NCBI RefSeq assembly: GCF_024204665.1
Contig: NZ_CP100355.1
Coordinates: forward strand, 1,903,451-1,967,450
Reading direction: 5' to 3'
DNA: 64,000 nucleotides
DNA from: Natronosalvus rutilus
GTDB taxonomy: Archaea; Halobacteriota; Halobacteria; Halobacteriales; Natrialbaceae
The first letter of the stretch is position 1, and every line of letters starts with the position of its first letter. Under the pieces are notes generated by a model that made no database searches, was not told the origin of the DNA, and was given only the letters and a program-made list of their open reading frames with translations. The position numbers were made by a program, and so were the translations under genes. Positions 11,818 through 19,737 of the stretch are shown piece by piece.

Positions 11818-13785
11818 ATGGGATTCGATCGACAGGTGCTGGCAGTCGCCCTCGTCGCCCTGCTCGTAGGCTCGAGCGTGGGATTCGCCTTCGCTGGCGA
11901 ACTCGGTGGGACGAGGCCGGCGGCAGCCGACACCAACGGACTGGAGAATCGACAGCTATCGAACGACACTCCTCAGCCGAGTATCGAGCAGTTCGACACC
12001 GAGGCGGCGTTCGCCGACTACCTGCGAGCGTCGAACGAGGGCTCCGGGTCCTTCGGCTTCGGGATGGGCGGGCCGGTCGACACCGTCGAGGAAGAAGCTA
12101 CCGACGACGCTGCGGACGGAGACGGAGCGAGCGGTAACGGTGGGAACGGCAACGGGAACGACGCGGCCAGCGGTGACTCGTCCTCGGGTGCCGACGAACG
12201 CCGCTACGCCGAGACGAACGTCCAGGAGGCGATGCTGGACGAGCCCGACATCCTGAAGACCGACGGCCAGACCGTCTACTACGGCGACCGGCGCTTCCAC
12301 GGTGGGAGCGCGACCCACGTCATCGACGCCTCGACGCCGAACGACCCGACGGCGCTGAGCGAGATTCCGCGCTCGGGCGAGATGCTCCTGACCGACGACG
12401 ACGTCCTGGTGCAGTTCGACCGCAATCGCCTGCGCGGCTACGACGTCTCGAGCCCCGAAGATCCCGAAGCGGCCTGGTCGACGGACTTCGAGGGTCACCT
12501 CGAGGCGGCTCGCCTCTACGACGGCGACATCTACCTCGTCATGGCCGACCGCGTCTCGCCGGCCGAACCCTGTCCGGTCGAGCCGCTCGGCGACGACGGC
12601 CCCGCGGTCGACTGTACGGACGTCCACTACCCGAGCGATCAGAACGGCGCCGACACGGTGTACACGACGCTGCGCCTGGACCCCACAAGCGGCGAGGTCA
12701 CGGACTCGGTGAGTTTCCTCGGGTCGTCGTACACGACCGCAACCTACGTCTCCGAGAACGGCGTCTACCTGACGTACGTGGACTCGCCGTCCCACGCCGA
12801 CGTTCGCCTCGAGTTCCTCCTGACGATCGGTGAGGCGTACCTCGACGACCGGGCGCTCGAGCGACTCGAACGTTTGCAGGGCTACGACCTCTCTGAACAC
12901 GCGACGATGGTGGAAATCGAAGCCATCCTCGCTGACTGGCGGGCCGGACTCGACGACGACGAGCGCCGCACCAAAGAGCGCGAACTCCGCGAGGCCTGGG
13001 AGGAGTACGTCGAGGAGAACAAGCGAGCGTTCGACCGGACGGGGATCGTCAAGGTCGGATTCGGTGGCGACCTCTCCGTCGACGCCGGCGGCGCCGTCCC
13101 CGGTACGCCGCTCAACCAGTGGTCGATGGACGAACACGACGACCACCTGCGCATCGCGACGACGATCAACGCCCCGGGGGCCGAGTGGGAGAACGACCTC
13201 TACGTGCTCGATTCAGACCTCGAGGTGACCGGCTCGGTCACCGGTATGGGCGTCGACGAGCGGGTCTACTCCGTGCGCTACGAGGGCGACAAGGCCTACG
13301 TCGTCACGTTCCGCCAGATCGACCCGTTCCACGTCATCGACGTCTCCGACCACGAAAACCCGGTGCTCGAGGGTGAACTCAAGCTCCCGGGCTACTCCGA
13401 CTACCTCCACCCGCTCGGCGAGGAACGAATTCTGGGAATCGGACAGGAAGACGGGAAGGTCAAGGCCGTCATCTTCGATGCGAGCGATCCCGAGAACCCG
13501 GTGATCGAGGACGACGAGATCCTCGAGGACCGCTGGTCGGCCGTCAGCGAGAGTCACAACGCCTTCCTGCTCGACGAACGCCACGGCGTGTTCTTCCTGC
13601 CGGGCAGCGAGGGCGGCCACGTCTACGCCTACGAGGACGGCCTCGAGCACGTGATGACCGTCGACACCGATGGTCCGGCCTTCCGGGCGACCTACATCGA
13701 CGACTCGCTGTACGTCTTTGGCGAGGGCGAACTGGTCGTCGTCGACCAGACGACCTGGGAGGAGGTGAAGCGACTCGAGCTTTAG
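11818..13785 (+). CDS. Secreted protein with C-terminal beta-propeller domain
   Basis: 655 residues. A signal anchor or signal peptide (VLAVALVALLVGSSVGFAFA) is followed by a low-complexity D/G/N-rich linker to about residue 125. The rest matches the Beta_propel family of extracellular archaeal proteins. Landmarks are the conserved ETNVQEAMLDEPDILKTDG entry motif, repeated strands such as HVIDASTPNDPTALSEIP, and WSMDEHDDHLRIATT in the second half. The family's role at the cell surface is unknown. It is divergent from a thiolase gene and ends 86 bases before the converging regulator of the SipW cluster. Confidence 0.85.
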   Translation: MGFDRQVLAVALVALLVGSSVGFAFAGELGGTRPAAADTNGLENRQLSNDTPQPSIEQFDTEAAFADYLRASNEGSGSFGFGMGGPVDTVEEEATDDAADGDGASGNGGNGNGNDAASGDSSSGADERRYAETNVQEAMLDEPDILKTDGQTVYYGDRRFHGGSATHVIDASTPNDPTALSEIPRSGEMLLTDDDVLVQFDRNRLRGYDVSSPEDPEAAWSTDFEGHLEAARLYDGDIYLVMADRVSPAEPCPVEPLGDDGPAVDCTDVHYPSDQNGADTVYTTLRLDPTSGEVTDSVSFLGSSYTTATYVSENGVYLTYVDSPSHADVRLEFLLTIGEAYLDDRALERLERLQGYDLSEHATMVEIEAILADWRAGLDDDERRTKERELREAWEEYVEENKRAFDRTGIVKVGFGGDLSVDAGGAVPGTPLNQWSMDEHDDHLRIATTINAPGAEWENDLYVLDSDLEVTGSVTGMGVDERVYSVRYEGDKAYVVTFRQIDPFHVIDVSDHENPVLEGELKLPGYSDYLHPLGEERILGIGQEDGKVKAVIFDASDPENPVIEDDEILEDRWSAVSESHNAFLLDERHGVFFLPGSEGGHVYAYEDGLEHVMTVDTDGPAFRATYIDDSLYVFGEGELVVVDQTTWEEVKRLEL

Positions 13786-13871: not shown

Positions 13872-14450
13872 TTACGACCTCCTGTTCCCGATCCCCGTTT
13901 TCTCCGGCGAGACGTTCGCGACTAGCGAGTGGAGGTAGAACCAGCGTCGAGTCCACAGTTGATAGGCCGTCGAGATCGCGAAGACGACGAGGAACGCGCT
14001 AGCCGTGAGGACGGTCGGCACCGTCGAGAGAAATGGAACCCCGGCGCTGGTAGCGACGACCGTCACGAGCGCGAGTACCCCGAGCGTTCGGTAGTAGCCG
14101 GCCCAGGAGATGCCGTGACGCATCACGACTTCCATGTACAGGTCGACCTGCCGAGCCGAGTCGCGAAGTTCGACCGTCTTTCGGTCGTCGTCGTACTCGA
14201 TGACCCCCAAGGCGTCTAACTTGGGCAGGTGCGTCTGGTGAAGCGAATTGTAGACGCTCTCGCGAACGTTGCGCGGCGCCGGCGATTCGCCGGTTTCAAG
14301 TTCAGCGATTCGCTCCGAAAGCTCTCGGAGTGTTACTGGCGTGAGCCGCGCCTCGAGGTGTCTGATGACGTGTCGGCGTCGACTGTTGCGAAGGATATCG
14401 TGGATTTCCTTCGGATCGATTCGGCTCTTCTTTTGGTTTGTCGCGAGCAT
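13872..14450 (-). CDS. Membrane-anchored DUF7344 winged-helix regulator
   Basis: 192 residues from the ATG at 14450. The N-terminal half is a DUF7344 winged helix (ILRNSRRRHVIRHLEAR, LHQTHLPKLDALGVIEYDD). It is followed by a linker and two predicted transmembrane helices (about residues 127-167, GVLALVTVVATSAGVPF and VLTASAFLVVFAISTAY). This suggests a one-component regulator tethered at the membrane. It is transcribed away from the SipW/TasA-like genes, whose first ATG lies about 390 bases away, so it is the natural candidate regulator of that cluster (inference). GGGGGA immediately precedes the chosen start. The open frame runs back to 14573 but without plausible domain content. Confidence 0.8.
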   Translation of the reverse strand: MLATNQKKSRIDPKEIHDILRNSRRRHVIRHLEARLTPVTLRELSERIAELETGESPAPRNVRESVYNSLHQTHLPKLDALGVIEYDDDRKTVELRDSARQVDLYMEVVMRHGISWAGYYRTLGVLALVTVVATSAGVPFLSTVPTVLTASAFLVVFAISTAYQLWTRRWFYLHSLVANVSPEKTGIGNRRS

Positions 14451-14843
14451 ATTCCCCCATCTGCTGCCGGATCGTGGTTCCGGTTGTCCTGCACGTTCCT
14501 CCCCCCAGAGGACCGGCTGTCGTACACCCGAAACTGATTTGATTGTCACATATAAATATACCAGTCTGTTCACAAGTCGGGACGAAAAACACCAGGGGGC
14601 AGCGCGTCAAACGACGTGTTCGAATGGTGGAATGACTGACCCTCTCCCTCGCAGGAGTGACCTACCCTGCATAGAGGGCGCTTACTCCGGTCGAATCGAT
14701 CGTTTCGGCCGTTTGAACGGGCCGTTCTGCTAGCGATCGTCTCATTAGCAGTGTTCGATCCAGTAATTAGCTAATGGCGGGGAGAATGCAGTGGTTCTCA
14801 CGTTCGGGCCGACCGATGACGGGCGGCTCGGACTCGTGCAACC
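14451..14843. other. Divergent promoter region of the SipW/TasA-like cluster
   Basis: About 390 bases without a gene. It contains an AT-rich near-palindrome CATATAAATATAC (14545-14558) that could serve as TATA in either direction. A perfect palindrome ATTAGCTAAT (14765-14774) lies upstream of the first cluster gene. These are the most likely regulatory sites of the cluster. Confidence 0.45.
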
Positions 14844-15785
14844 ATGACCGAAGGATACGATCTCTCACGACGGAAGGTGCTGACCGGCCTCGGAACGATC
14901 GGGGTCGCCGGTGCTGTCGCCGGAATGGGAACGACTGCGTACTTTAGCGACGAGGAATCGTTCGAAGACAACTCGATCAACGCAGGGACATTCTCGATGG
15001 ACGTCGAGCTCCTCGACCTCGAGGGGGCCGTCGATCAGGACGGAATGGGTCCCGACGAGGACGACTGGTACTCCGAATCGGAGGGGGACAACGCGATGGT
15101 CGGAGCCTCTCTCAACATTAGCGACCTGAAGCCCGGTGACTCCTACAAATTCTGCTGGTGTATCAGAGTTCACGACAACCCTGGCGTCGTTCGGGCGTTC
15201 ATCCCGTGGGAGTCCATCGATTCAAAGACGGGTTATGAGGCAGGTAACGTCCGCGCTGCGGATATTTACGACATCGACGAGGATGACGACTTCGAGAACC
15301 TGCTCGGCTCGGAAGACATCACGGTTTCAAAGAACCTCCACGTGTGCGAGGGAAGGGAACTGGGTGAGCCGTTCTTCGAGGAGGATATCACGTACGAACC
15401 AGACGACAGCGGCGAATACGATCACGACGGCGGTCTCGGAAACTGGGTTAGCAGCCTTTCGAACGGCGAGTACTCGAGCCAGGATGGTGTTCCCATCGGT
15501 TCACACAACGGTGTCGGTCACCGGACTGATGGGAACCTCGATGAGGGCGAAGCCGATTACGTTCTGATCGGCCCCACCGGTCAGGGTGCCGACTACGAGG
15601 CGGTGGCCTACTGCATCGAAATCACGGTAAGCGAGGAGGCTGGCAACGAACTCCAGGGAGCCGAGCTATCGTTCGACCTGCAGTTCCTCGCCGAGCAGGC
15701 CCGCCACAACGATCACCCGTTCTCCGACATGGCCACGAGGCCGACGGGAGATGGGATCGACGATTGGGACGACCTCCCGAGATAG
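14844..15785 (+). CDS. SipW-type signal peptide protein, TasA/CalY-like
   Basis: 313 residues. The N-terminus has LSRRKVLTGLG, a hydrophobic core and the SipW-type cleavage context TTAYFSDEESF, followed by NSINAGTFSMDVEL, the start pattern of TasA/CalY-like proteins. Near the C-terminus is the motif FLAEQARHND (residues 281-290), shared with the next gene. It is acidic and Cys-containing. TasA-like proteins form extracellular fibres by donor-strand exchange in bacteria and in Pyrobaculum bundling pili. The dedicated signal peptidase three genes downstream supports this as an exported structural subunit. Fibre formation is inferred, not seen. Confidence 0.8.
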   Translation: MTEGYDLSRRKVLTGLGTIGVAGAVAGMGTTAYFSDEESFEDNSINAGTFSMDVELLDLEGAVDQDGMGPDEDDWYSESEGDNAMVGASLNISDLKPGDSYKFCWCIRVHDNPGVVRAFIPWESIDSKTGYEAGNVRAADIYDIDEDDDFENLLGSEDITVSKNLHVCEGRELGEPFFEEDITYEPDDSGEYDHDGGLGNWVSSLSNGEYSSQDGVPIGSHNGVGHRTDGNLDEGEADYVLIGPTGQGADYEAVAYCIEITVSEEAGNELQGAELSFDLQFLAEQARHNDHPFSDMATRPTGDGIDDWDDLPR

Positions 15786-15863
15786 TCCCCACAGCGAATT
15801 ACCCACGCCGGTGTTTGACGGCGGTTCGACTCCGCCGGTGGGTTTCCCCAGGAGGGGATACAG

Positions 15864-17357
15864 ATGACAGACGACGGAATCGAACTAACGCGACGGAAGA
15901 TCCTCGGGAGCGTCGGCGCAGTTGGCCTCGCCGGCGCCGGTGCGGGATTAGGTACGAGCGCGTATTTCAGCGACGAGGAAACGTTCCGGAACAACACGAT
16001 CAACGCGGGCGAATTCGATCTTCTGCTCGACTATCGACTGACCTACCACGGGGGGTCAGGGCGTCTCGAGCATATCCGTGAAATGAAGGATGGACGATAC
16101 GCGGATGCGAAGGAACTCGACGAAGAGGAAGGTGTCTACCTCCTGGAACAAGTTCCAGACGCGATGGTGATCGTTGACGGCGAGTACCTCAAATGGGACG
16201 AGGCTGTCCGTGAGGTCGGCTGGTGCGACCACAAGCTACGGAAAGAGATGGTCAACGGCGACGAAATAGCGCCGATCGAACTCGGGGACGTCAAACCCGG
16301 GGATTCGGGCTGTCTTACGACGAGTCTCCACCTCTGTGACAATGCGGGATACATCTGGATGAACGGTGGACTGACGGCGAACGACGATAATGGATTTACC
16401 GACCCGGAGTCGGAAGTCGACGCGACGGTTGGAGCCGGAGATGGGGAGCTGGCAAATAATATTGAAACGCGCGTATGGTACGACGAGAACTGCGACTGCG
16501 AACTCGATCAAGAAGGGGAGGGCGGGGGAACGGTCGACATCGTGCTCGTCCTCGACCGGTCCGGTTCGATGTCGAGCTCGATGACGGCAATGAAGGATGC
16601 CGCGAAAGGACTCGTGGACGAACTCGATAACGCCGTTGCCAACGTTGGCGTCGTGAGCTACTCGAGTTCGGCGACGCTCGACCAAAAACTGACCAGCGAC
16701 CACGGCACCGTAAAAACAGCCATTGACGGATTGTCCTCGAGCGGCCAGACCCATATCGTCGACGGCGTGGAAACGGCACAGGAGGAACTCACTGACGGGA
16801 CAAACGCCCGCCCCGACGCGGAGAAGATCATGGTCGTCATGTCCGACGGGGAACACAATCAGGGCGGCGATCCGGTGGATGCGGCCGACGACGCCAAAGG
16901 TGAGGGTATCGAAATATACACCGTCGCGTTCGGCTCTGCGGACGAAAGTACTCTGCAGGATATGGCCAGCGATCCGTGGGATGCTCACTTCTTCCAGGCC
17001 GCCAACGAGAACGAGCTGATCGACGCCTTCAGCCAGATCGGTCGGATCATCGCCGGTGAACGCGTTATCTTCGAAGGAACGCTCGAGGAACTCACGTCGC
17101 TCCTTTCGACGGGCCACGGCATCCCGCTCGACGGGAATCGAGAGACCAGCTACGACGAGGTCGTCGACGGCGAGCCTGCCGACGGAGACGACGATCACCG
17201 CGAGCCGTTCGGCCCGAAGCGAACCCACTGTATCGGTCTCGAATGGGAGCTCCCACCCACCGTCGGAAACGAGGTGCAGTCGGACTCGGTCGTCTTCGAC
17301 GTCGGCTTCTACGCCGAACAGGCGCGGCACAACGACGGGAGGGGCGTCTCGTCGTAA
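15864..17357 (+). CDS. SipW-type protein with embedded von Willebrand A domain
   Basis: 497 residues. The signal region (TRRKILGSVG, hydrophobic core, TSAYFSDEETF) and NTINAGEFDL match the preceding gene. After a TasA-like first half, a von Willebrand A domain starts near residue 224 with an intact MIDAS motif DRSGSM (231-236), and continues to about 395 with VVMSDGEHN and a later TVAFGSAD segment. A second TasA-like part then resumes and ends with FYAEQARHND (482-491), the cluster's shared motif. The vWA domain therefore appears inserted within one TasA-type protein. The likely role is an adhesive or tip component that binds a ligand through a divalent metal. Confidence 0.8.
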   Translation: MTDDGIELTRRKILGSVGAVGLAGAGAGLGTSAYFSDEETFRNNTINAGEFDLLLDYRLTYHGGSGRLEHIREMKDGRYADAKELDEEEGVYLLEQVPDAMVIVDGEYLKWDEAVREVGWCDHKLRKEMVNGDEIAPIELGDVKPGDSGCLTTSLHLCDNAGYIWMNGGLTANDDNGFTDPESEVDATVGAGDGELANNIETRVWYDENCDCELDQEGEGGGTVDIVLVLDRSGSMSSSMTAMKDAAKGLVDELDNAVANVGVVSYSSSATLDQKLTSDHGTVKTAIDGLSSSGQTHIVDGVETAQEELTDGTNARPDAEKIMVVMSDGEHNQGGDPVDAADDAKGEGIEIYTVAFGSADESTLQDMASDPWDAHFFQAANENELIDAFSQIGRIIAGERVIFEGTLEELTSLLSTGHGIPLDGNRETSYDEVVDGEPADGDDDHREPFGPKRTHCIGLEWELPPTVGNEVQSDSVVFDVGFYAEQARHNDGRGVSS

Positions 17358-17522
17358 GCGGAAATTCGAAGATAGGGTTTAACGGCAGCTACCGATGCGA
17401 AGCCGGGGCCTGATGAATCGAACGGAGGTCATAACCAAAAGCGGAATTCGAGAACGAACGCGTGATAGATAGATGACACTCGTGAACCGGGGAACCACGG
17501 ACGAACAGGGGGTTTGGGAAGG

Positions 17523-18590
17523 ATGGATCAATCAGGATTGAGTCGACGACGAATACTTGCAGGGGTCGCCCTCGCTGGCAGTGCCGGAGCGCTCACCGGT
17601 GTCGGGACCGGCGCCGTCCTCGCCGATCGAGTACGGTTCGAGAACCGACTGTCAGCGGGTACACTCGACCTTCGCGTCGGGTGGAACGGCGGCTCGAGCG
17701 CGGGAACGGTACCGCTCGAGATTGAGTTCTCGGACGGCGCAACCGGCGGCGAGGAGATTCTTCGGGTGTCACTCCCCGACGACGGCTCGAACAACCAGGC
17801 ATACGCCTGGTTGGGGGCGACCTGCCCCACCGAATCGGCGCTCCTCGAGCATCTCTCACTCACGATCTCGTACGCCGATTGTACGGACGAAACCGCGCTT
17901 GACGGTAGCGAACTCGTCTCGGGTTCGTTGCTGGAGGTGGCCGAAACGCTCACGGGTGGGGTCGCGCTCGACGGAGGTCGAAGGGCGTCAGTAGGTGACG
18001 AGGATCGGGCCTGCCTCCAACCCGGCAACGAGTTGTGTCTCCTCCTCGAGTGGGTACTCGACCCCGAGTACGCTGGCGAGGAGACCACCGCATTCGAATT
18101 CCGGTTCGTGGGCCAGCAGTGTCGTCACGGGGACGCCACGGCGAATCCGTTCACTGCTCGGAAGTGTGACGCGGCGGAGGATTACCACGGAATAAGTCAC
18201 GTCGAGATCTACGTCTGCGACGACGAGGAAACGCCCGAATTGGCAGGCAAACTCGAACTCAGCGAGAGCGGCTACTGTAGCCAGGACGGAATTAGTGCGA
18301 ACTCGATTGAGGTCGGGCAGTATGTCCTCTATCCGGACGGTGACGCGTGTGACGAGCCAACCGGCTACTTCGTCGACGTGAGAGCAACCCGAACGAACGA
18401 GGACGGCGAAACGATCGGCCTCGCGTTCGAGCTCATGACCGACGACGGCGGAGTTGATCCGGAACTGTGTCGCGTTGACGTAAAGGGTGGACCGGGCGTC
18501 GAGACCTACGATGGGGACGACTTCGACGGAAATGCGACGAACGGCGTGCTCACAGCGTCAGCGAAGTCGTCGAACGGAGGACAGCCATGA
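17523..18590 (+). CDS. SipW-cluster secreted protein, two-part, cysteine-containing
   Basis: 355 residues from the ATG at 17523; a TTG at 17514 is an alternative. An export signal with SRRRILAGVALAGSAGALTG is followed by a shortened version of the cluster signature (FENRLSAGTLDLRV). The first half ends with FVGQQCRHGD (195-204), a diverged form of the FxAEQARHND motif. A second domain of about 150 residues follows, with several cysteines and the segment GYCSQDGISANSIEVGQY; its family is not recognised. Its stop overlaps the signal peptidase start as ATGA, so the two are translated together. Confidence 0.72.
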   Translation: MDQSGLSRRRILAGVALAGSAGALTGVGTGAVLADRVRFENRLSAGTLDLRVGWNGGSSAGTVPLEIEFSDGATGGEEILRVSLPDDGSNNQAYAWLGATCPTESALLEHLSLTISYADCTDETALDGSELVSGSLLEVAETLTGGVALDGGRRASVGDEDRACLQPGNELCLLLEWVLDPEYAGEETTAFEFRFVGQQCRHGDATANPFTARKCDAAEDYHGISHVEIYVCDDEETPELAGKLELSESGYCSQDGISANSIEVGQYVLYPDGDACDEPTGYFVDVRATRTNEDGETIGLAFELMTDDGGVDPELCRVDVKGGPGVETYDGDDFDGNATNGVLTASAKSSNGGQP

Positions 18591-19393
18591 CCGAGTCAAA
18601 GAGCGATCCGTCGACCGGAATCGCGCGACGACTCGAGACGTTTCGGAAGCGAATCCCCTGGTGGCGACTCGCGAATTTCGTCGGATTACTCGTCTTGCTG
18701 ACGGTCGTCCTCCCGTTCGTCGTCTACGCGGTGCCACAGGTCGTCGGCGCGAATCAGAGCTACGTGGTTCTCTCCGGCAGCATGGAACCCACGATCAGCC
18801 CCGGCGACGCGATCATCGTCGAGTCGGTCGAACCGTCGGCGATCGACGAGGGAGACGTCATCACGTTTACCCGGGATGGGAACGCCTACACCACGACCCA
18901 TCGCGTCACCGAGATACGCGACTCAGAGGCCGGTCTCGAGTTCCGGACGAAAGGCGATGCGAACGCTCAGGCCGATCAGGCGCCCGTGGCGGCCTCGCAG
19001 GTCGAGGGTCGCGTGGCATCGATCGGTGGCGTCGCTCTCGTGATCCCGCTCGTCGGTAACGTCGTCCAGTTCGCGGGTACGACGGTCGGATTCGGCGTGC
19101 TGGTCGTCGTTCCGCTCGGCGCGCTCGTGCTCACAGAGGCCTGGAACCGGCGTTCGGAAACCGGGGCGAGAGACGGGGCCGGGGACGCCCAGTCCGGATC
19201 GGAGCGTGGCTGGCTTACGCTCCAGCCCGCCGACCTCAAACTGACGCTCCTCGTGACCAGTGCGTTCGCCGCGTACAGCGTCTGGATTGCCTCGATCGTG
19301 CTCTCGTTCTGGACCATCGCCGTGGCGGCCAGCACCGTCACGGCCTTCCTGTTACTCGCGAGGCTGTACACCTCGAGCGGAGGTGTCCGATGA
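18587..19393 (+). CDS. sipW: Signal peptidase I (SipW/ER type)
   Basis: 268 residues. An N-terminal membrane helix (residues about 25-50) is followed by the catalytic motif SGSMEPTISPGD with Ser65 and by THRVTEI with His105. A Ser-His pair instead of Ser-Lys is typical of archaeal, eukaryotic and SipW-type enzymes. Two further transmembrane helices at 145-185 and 215-262 anchor the C-terminus. It overlaps the genes before and after it by ATGA, and lies among proteins with SipW-type signals, so it is very probably their dedicated processing enzyme. Confidence 0.9.
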   Translation: MTESKSDPSTGIARRLETFRKRIPWWRLANFVGLLVLLTVVLPFVVYAVPQVVGANQSYVVLSGSMEPTISPGDAIIVESVEPSAIDEGDVITFTRDGNAYTTTHRVTEIRDSEAGLEFRTKGDANAQADQAPVAASQVEGRVASIGGVALVIPLVGNVVQFAGTTVGFGVLVVVPLGALVLTEAWNRRSETGARDGAGDAQSGSERGWLTLQPADLKLTLLVTSAFAAYSVWIASIVLSFWTIAVAASTVTAFLLLARLYTSSGGVR

Positions 19394-19737
19394 ACCGTCA
19401 CGTCGTTCTCTCGCTCTGGCTTCTCGCGGCGCTGATCGCGGCAGTCGCGAGCGGCGGCGCCACTGTAGCCCTCTTCAGCGACGAGGCGAGCGTTCCAGTC
19501 GAGGTTTCGACCGACGTTCGCGAACCCGAACACGAAACGGCGAGCAACGACAGCGTGTCGTCGTCTGCCTCCTCGAACACGGCCGGCGAGAACGCGACGA
19601 GCGACATGGCGGAACCGGCGAACGATTCGAGCGGCCAAAGGGCGTCGAACGGTCTCGATAGTGTTGCCATCGATAGTAACAGTACTGCAGACGCCGACGA
19701 CACCAACGATACGGATGAGGACGTCTCGCAAACGTAA
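19390..19737 (+). CDS. Small secreted protein of the SipW cluster
   Basis: 115 residues. An N-terminal hydrophobic segment (LSLWLLAALIAAVASGGATVA) ends in LFSDEAS, the same cleavage-site signature as its neighbours. The rest is low-complexity and rich in S, N, D, E and A, with no recognisable domain. It overlaps the signal peptidase stop by ATGA and ends the operon. Possible roles are an anchor, assembly initiator or spacer, by analogy with small accessory proteins in SipW operons of Bacillus. The sequence alone does not decide this. Confidence 0.7.
   Translation: MNRHVVLSLWLLAALIAAVASGGATVALFSDEASVPVEVSTDVREPEHETASNDSVSSSASSNTAGENATSDMAEPANDSSGQRASNGLDSVAIDSNSTADADDTNDTDEDVSQT

Follow-up and report, generated by a model that had tools for sequence, protein, structure and literature searches.

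Which surface structure, if any, is built by a haloarchaeal cluster that sets genes with SipW-type signals beside a signal peptidase of its own? Such a cluster occupies positions 13872-19737 of a 64,000-nt stretch of Natronosalvus rutilus (NZ_CP100355.1; the whole stretch is referred to as the window), which belongs to a 4.3-Mb haloarchaeal genome. In Bacillus subtilis, SipW is the peptidase that processes TasA and TapA, and TasA assembles into fibres by donor-strand exchange, with its own N-terminal segment as the donor strand (PMC9674648, PMC10151520). A first-pass annotation, made from the DNA sequence, had related the cluster to this system. Its gene positions were all correct, the ATGA overlaps that it described for the last three genes (S3, SP and S6) are present at 18587-18590 and 19390-19393, and the kinship with TasA and SipW is supported by sequence profiles, structure comparison and a gene order kept across haloarchaea. 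We propose, with a probability of about two in three, that the cluster is a haloarchaeal TasA/SipW-type surface-fibre operon, assembled by donor strands and equipped with a vWA adhesive subunit. The features are collected in Table 1.

Table 1. Features of the cluster, in window coordinates, with the evidence for each.
Feature	Position	Strand	Evidence
DUF7344 winged-helix gene	13872..14450	-	PF24035 E 5e-30; divergent neighbour in syntenic loci reaching that far
Divergent intergenic region, likely promoters	14451..14843		Position only
S1, TasA-like subunit	14844..15785	+	TIGR04088 35.6 bits; PF12389 23.7 bits (signal region); TasA kinship
S2, TasA-like core split by vWA domain	15864..17357	+	TIGR04088 31.5 bits; core residues 34-213 and 399-492; predicted model
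S2 vWA domain, residues 225-389, motif DRSGSM	16536..17030	+	PF00092 120.7 bits; fold match Z 25.7
S3, TasA-like core and C-terminal domain without family assignment	17523..18590	+	hhalign to S1 family E 9e-25
SP, SipW-class signal peptidase, Ser65-His105-Asp124/130	18587..19393	+	TIGR02228 101 bits; invariant residues
S6, short Sec-type secreted protein	19390..19737	+	Relatives follow SP directly; TIGR04088 16.5 bits, under the cut-off

The TasA ancestry of the core of S1, S2 and S3 is supported by profile comparisons. A direct search of the PDB with the S1-family profile retrieved TasA with an E-value of 0.033, ranked after a short match to sialoadhesin that spans only 42 residues and was set aside; neither AbpA nor AbpX was among the matches listed. 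The kinship of S1 with TasA is made firm by a small haloarchaeal family that bridges the two, as hhalign aligned the S1 family to this family with an E-value of 3.3e-18, and this family to TasA 5OF1/8AUR with E-values of 3.6e-11/7.8e-11 over most of its length. The S3 family aligned to the S1 family over 172 columns, with a core at residues about 32-211 of S3, and the core of S2 was matched by the core profile in two halves; TasA was absent from the matches of the S3 profile in the PDB. Over the whole host genome, the S1-family profile matched S1, S2 and S3 only. In the alignment, the cores have in common F-S-D-E where the mature protein starts, then KPGD, and VGNE-QGDSV-FDL-F-AEQ-RHND at the end, and the same landmarks are found in TasA (SNLKPGD; VQNKYQGNSIKLQFSFEATQ). 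The FxAEQARHND-type motif, previously described as an end motif common to three genes, is indeed present in S1, S2 and S3 (FVGQQCRHGD in S3); it is near-terminal in S1 and S2, but in S3 ~145 residues follow it. It represents the final strand of the TasA core.

Structural comparison pointed in the same direction. The AlphaFold model of mature S1 is weak, with a pLDDT of 56 and a pTM of 0.61; among 988 chains compared to it by VIA-align, the fibre and the monomer of TasA were the two best, with Z-scores of 7.5 and 6.7 against 5.4 for the next chain, all below 8. Such scores alone would not decide the matter, and it is the agreement of the fold comparison with the sequence search that counts. Foldseek with the same weak model gave no significant match, whereas VIA-align on the same candidates placed TasA first. 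In addition, S1 passes the gathering score of Pfam PF12389 (22.5), the name of which would suggest a camelysin-type secreted metallopeptidase system; S2 and S3 stay below this score at 14.4 and 13.7 bits, respectively. However, the match of S1 is limited to the signal and the start of the core (residues 10-55), and the HExxH motif is absent from S1-S3, for which reason we set this reading aside as extremely improbable.

S2 carries the vWA domain that had been attributed to a subunit of the cluster, including a metal-site motif of the MIDAS type (DxSxS). The core profile matches S2 on either side of this domain, and the predicted structure (pLDDT 75.5) has a confident vWA domain between the two halves of the core. 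Profiles and predicted models support the view that, in S2, one loop of the TasA core has taken up a vWA domain. The best structural match of the modelled vWA domain is that of Mfa5, the tip protein of the type V pilus of Porphyromonas gingivalis, over 172 residues at 1.6 Å, tied within 1-2 Z units with many other vWA domains; TasA does not appear in the list for the S2 model, because vWA chains fill it. The likeness to Mfa5 is confined to the vWA domain; in its remaining parts and in its pilus system Mfa5 is different, and we claim no kinship beyond this domain.

Inserts recur in this loop of the TasA-like core. At least twenty paralogs bear inserts of ~40-380 residues in about the same core region as S2, consisting of vWA domains, propeller-like repeats or unassigned sequence (loci L003-L010 and L041-L060). 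Some paralogs also have C-terminal additions, among them a weak β-helix match and, in one S3 relative, DUF7467. Large and varied inserts and additions of this kind would suit separate adhesins, and it is conceivable, if unlikely, that the products, after secretion and trimming by SP, do not polymerise and serve as TasA-fold surface or matrix proteins, either adhesins or decorations. Against this, several paralogs in each cluster retain the same core together with the N-terminal segment that is the donor strand in TasA, and the combination of one dedicated peptidase with a conserved three-gene end (S3-SP-S6) suggests joint assembly.

The signals are less uniform than the first-pass annotation had it, which assigned a SipW-type signal with a common AxFSDE context to five genes. 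Four genes (S1, S2, S6 and S3) carry such a signal, whereas the fifth encodes the peptidase itself and is no substrate. TIGR04088 of NCBIfam, a model that spans just the 34-residue signal and has a cut-off of 19 bits, is exceeded by S1 and S2; these are its only matches in the whole genome, which argues that their clustering is not due to chance. S6 has the same motif despite a score below the cut-off, whereas S3 gave no match to the model and reads GTGA↓VLADRVRF at the corresponding position (the arrow marks the cleavage site). As relatives of S3 have AYLSDEE or AVFSDEE in the cleavage region, we regard its signal as a degenerate copy. Cleavage is expected at TTA↓YFSDEE in S1, at TSA↓YFSDEE in S2 and at ATVA↓LFSDE in S6, and the mature proteins would begin at 14940, at 15963 and at about 19471, respectively. 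The common register A↓x-[FL]-x-D, which was read off the alignment and not taken from a prediction program, is that of TasA. LepB, the ordinary peptidase of bacteria, deals poorly with the phenylalanine at P2' of TasA (PMC10269814), which would give a reason for a dedicated peptidase to accompany these genes.

A point absent from the earlier annotation is that S1-S3 have twin-arginine (Tat) motifs (SRRKVL in S1), and S6 has none. An RR pair near the N-terminus was found in 91 of 95 substrate-like ORFs, a few of the 91 being long ORFs with uncertain starts. By contrast, 10 of the 11 S6 proteins compared, including that of the window, have no RR pair before the hydrophobic stretch, the exception being that of locus L055. 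A similar Tat-type start (MNRRNVLVGLG...GAFSSVEA) is seen in PDB 9P0A chain C, a solved structure named 'Pilin', which resembles the signal region of the cluster proteins and possibly represents another haloarchaeal fibre family. Its match to the S3 profile lies mainly in the signal region (E 0.06), the matching fragment has no Pfam family, and the entry was set aside.

The Ser-His signal peptidase noted previously is borne out by SP, whose assignment to the archaeal, ER-type family TIGR02228 (cut-off 51.85 bits) is supported by its score and by residues S65, H105, D124 and D130, invariant across 26 relatives. It is the only member above the cut-off in the genome, which has two weaker matches elsewhere. 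Against NF046067, the equivalog model of Bacillus SipW, SP scored 95 bits with a cut-off of 190; judged by this model, SP is a relative of SipW and not its orthologue. Two other loci, L037 and L039, contain SP-like genes with in-frame stops within the match (2 and 1 TGA, respectively), which are possibly decayed copies.

Compared to tapA-sipW-tasA of B. subtilis, the haloarchaeal cluster has a related core, the cleavage register A↓x-F-x-D, a dedicated signal peptidase of the Ser-His-Asp type, a peptidase gene that overlaps the gene of an accessory protein, as tapA and sipW do (PMC10151520), and a short secreted protein whose start resembles a donor strand. They differ in that the haloarchaeal subunits have Tat instead of Sec signals, that several genes bear the core and one has a vWA domain within it, that no TapA Ig domain is recognisable, and that a probable DUF7344 regulator takes the place of SinR. 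S6 has LFSDE at the mature N-terminus and a low-complexity tail with five N-glycosylation sequons, and no folded domain was recognised in it by Pfam. As residues 44-57 at the mature N-terminus of TapA alone suffice for biofilm formation (PMC10151520), S6 is a candidate starter.

The conserved order of these genes is supported by many further loci, as the earlier annotation had suggested checking. The recurrent arrangement is a divergent winged-helix gene, one to six genes of the S1/S2 type, S3, SP and S6, and it was found in Halorubrum, Halobellus, Halobacterium and others (L003-L010) as well as in members of the family (L041-L056). In the compared loci, some of which are cut at one end, S3 is kept directly upstream of SP, and relatives of S6, recognised in part of the loci, directly downstream. 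Of the 125 family genomes compared, 37 have TasA-like genes, 44 have SP and 34 have both; in all 34 of the latter the two lie within 12 kb of each other, and the three genomes with TasA-like genes and no SP are incomplete and fragmented. The co-occurrence has a Fisher value of 3e-18, which is inflated by shared ancestry; the linkage is independent of it. SipW-type signals were found in 137 of 292 sampled genomes of Halobacteria (50 of 77 genera), and also in the control genome, Haloferax volcanii. With the S1 profile, matches outside Halobacteria were confined to six of the sampled genomes, one match apiece. No relative was found in viral contigs, giving no sign of a virus-borne cluster. A second, compact type of cluster (L054 and L057-L060) has a shorter SP, in most cases with a DUF7344 gene next to it or overlapping it, and small TasA-like genes nearby that match Bacillus TasA clearly.

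Within the genus of the window, SP is present in only four of eight genomes, one of the four SP-less genomes being just 66% complete, so that the cluster looks like an accessory trait. Such patchiness, together with the variation of the inserted domains, might also be expected of secreted antagonism or a halocin-like system, in which the processed proteins would act on neighbouring cells. We consider this very improbable, as Pfam and NCBIfam recognised neither a toxin-like domain nor an obvious immunity gene in the cluster, and the TasA core is structural wherever it has been studied.

Archaeal relatives of TasA have already been recognised, in the Pyrobaculum work as cited in PMC10151520 and in Pyrodictium (PMC11952670), and the bundling pili AbpA (Pyrobaculum) and AbpX (Pyrodictium) are TasA-related donor-strand fibres (PMC9674648, PMC11952670). 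For AbpA of Pyrobaculum, which the earlier annotation had named as TasA-related, no specific link was recovered; of the two, only AbpX of Pyrodictium was reached from the small bridging family of haloarchaea, and weakly (E 0.015). Compared to these pilins, which are likewise archaeal and TasA-related, those of haloarchaea are larger and acidic, have a predicted Tat route and in part contain inserted domains, and no match of S1-S3 themselves to the two was listed. The signals have also been named already by NCBI: S1 and S2 are members of the 'SipW-dependent-type signal peptide-containing protein' family of Halobacteria (TIGR04088). However, this family describes the signal only, and the cores, the gene order and the partner genes are added by the present analysis.

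In the fibre operon that we propose, S1, S2 and S3 would be exported by Tat, presumably folded, with their TasA-like β-sandwich cores. SP, perhaps as the sole processing peptidase, would then cut them in the TasA register, and the N-terminal strand set free in this way would insert into the groove of the following subunit. The bulk of the fibre would consist of S1 as its main subunit; S2 would be adhesive through the vWA domain that it displays in one loop, and S3, with its additional C-terminal domain, would have an accessory role. S6 would be exported by Sec. With a donor-strand-like mature N-terminus and a disordered tail behind it, S6 might, like TapA, serve as the starter or anchor of the fibre. 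The set may be complete. The fibre operon is favoured by the presence of over-cut-off SipW-type signals and TasA-like genes in the host genome only beside SP. Weighing against it are the expected Tat export, unlike that of the Sec-exported TasA, the degenerate signal of S3, the patchy distribution in the genus (4/8), the weak S1 model, the null result of Foldseek and the rank of TasA after sialoadhesin in the direct profile search. More tentatively, the cluster may stand for a distinct haloarchaeal lineage of TasA systems, with subunits folded before Tat export, polymerisation triggered by the donor strand that cleavage sets free, a loop that exchanges binding domains and a Sec-exported starter, S6; this takes the vWA domains, the propeller-like repeats and the unassigned inserts alike as binding domains.

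If the fibre operon is real, biofilm fibres of Bacillus and of haloarchaea have their subunits and a dedicated peptidase in common; Tat export and an exchangeable adhesive domain would then be haloarchaeal additions, by which the order of export, cleavage and assembly becomes directly testable. H. volcanii, a carrier of SipW-type signals, is open to genetic manipulation. Archaeal relatives of TasA are known from hyperthermophiles; no study of a haloarchaeal TasA/SipW-type system was found in the literature searched, which took in only the smaller part of subscription journals and preprints.

The membrane-tethered winged-helix protein that had been noted on the minus strand corresponds to the DUF7344 gene, in which the PF24035 domain is followed by two C-terminal hydrophobic segments. 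This gene is kept beside the cluster and is a likely regulator; the divergent membrane protein probably controls the operon. A search for a shared operator motif in 15 intergenic regions gave just CG-rich words, little above shuffled sequences. On its other side, the DUF7344 gene is adjoined by a gene for a secreted β-propeller protein of PF09826 (window 11818-13785), and a relative occupies the corresponding position in L041, a close relative.
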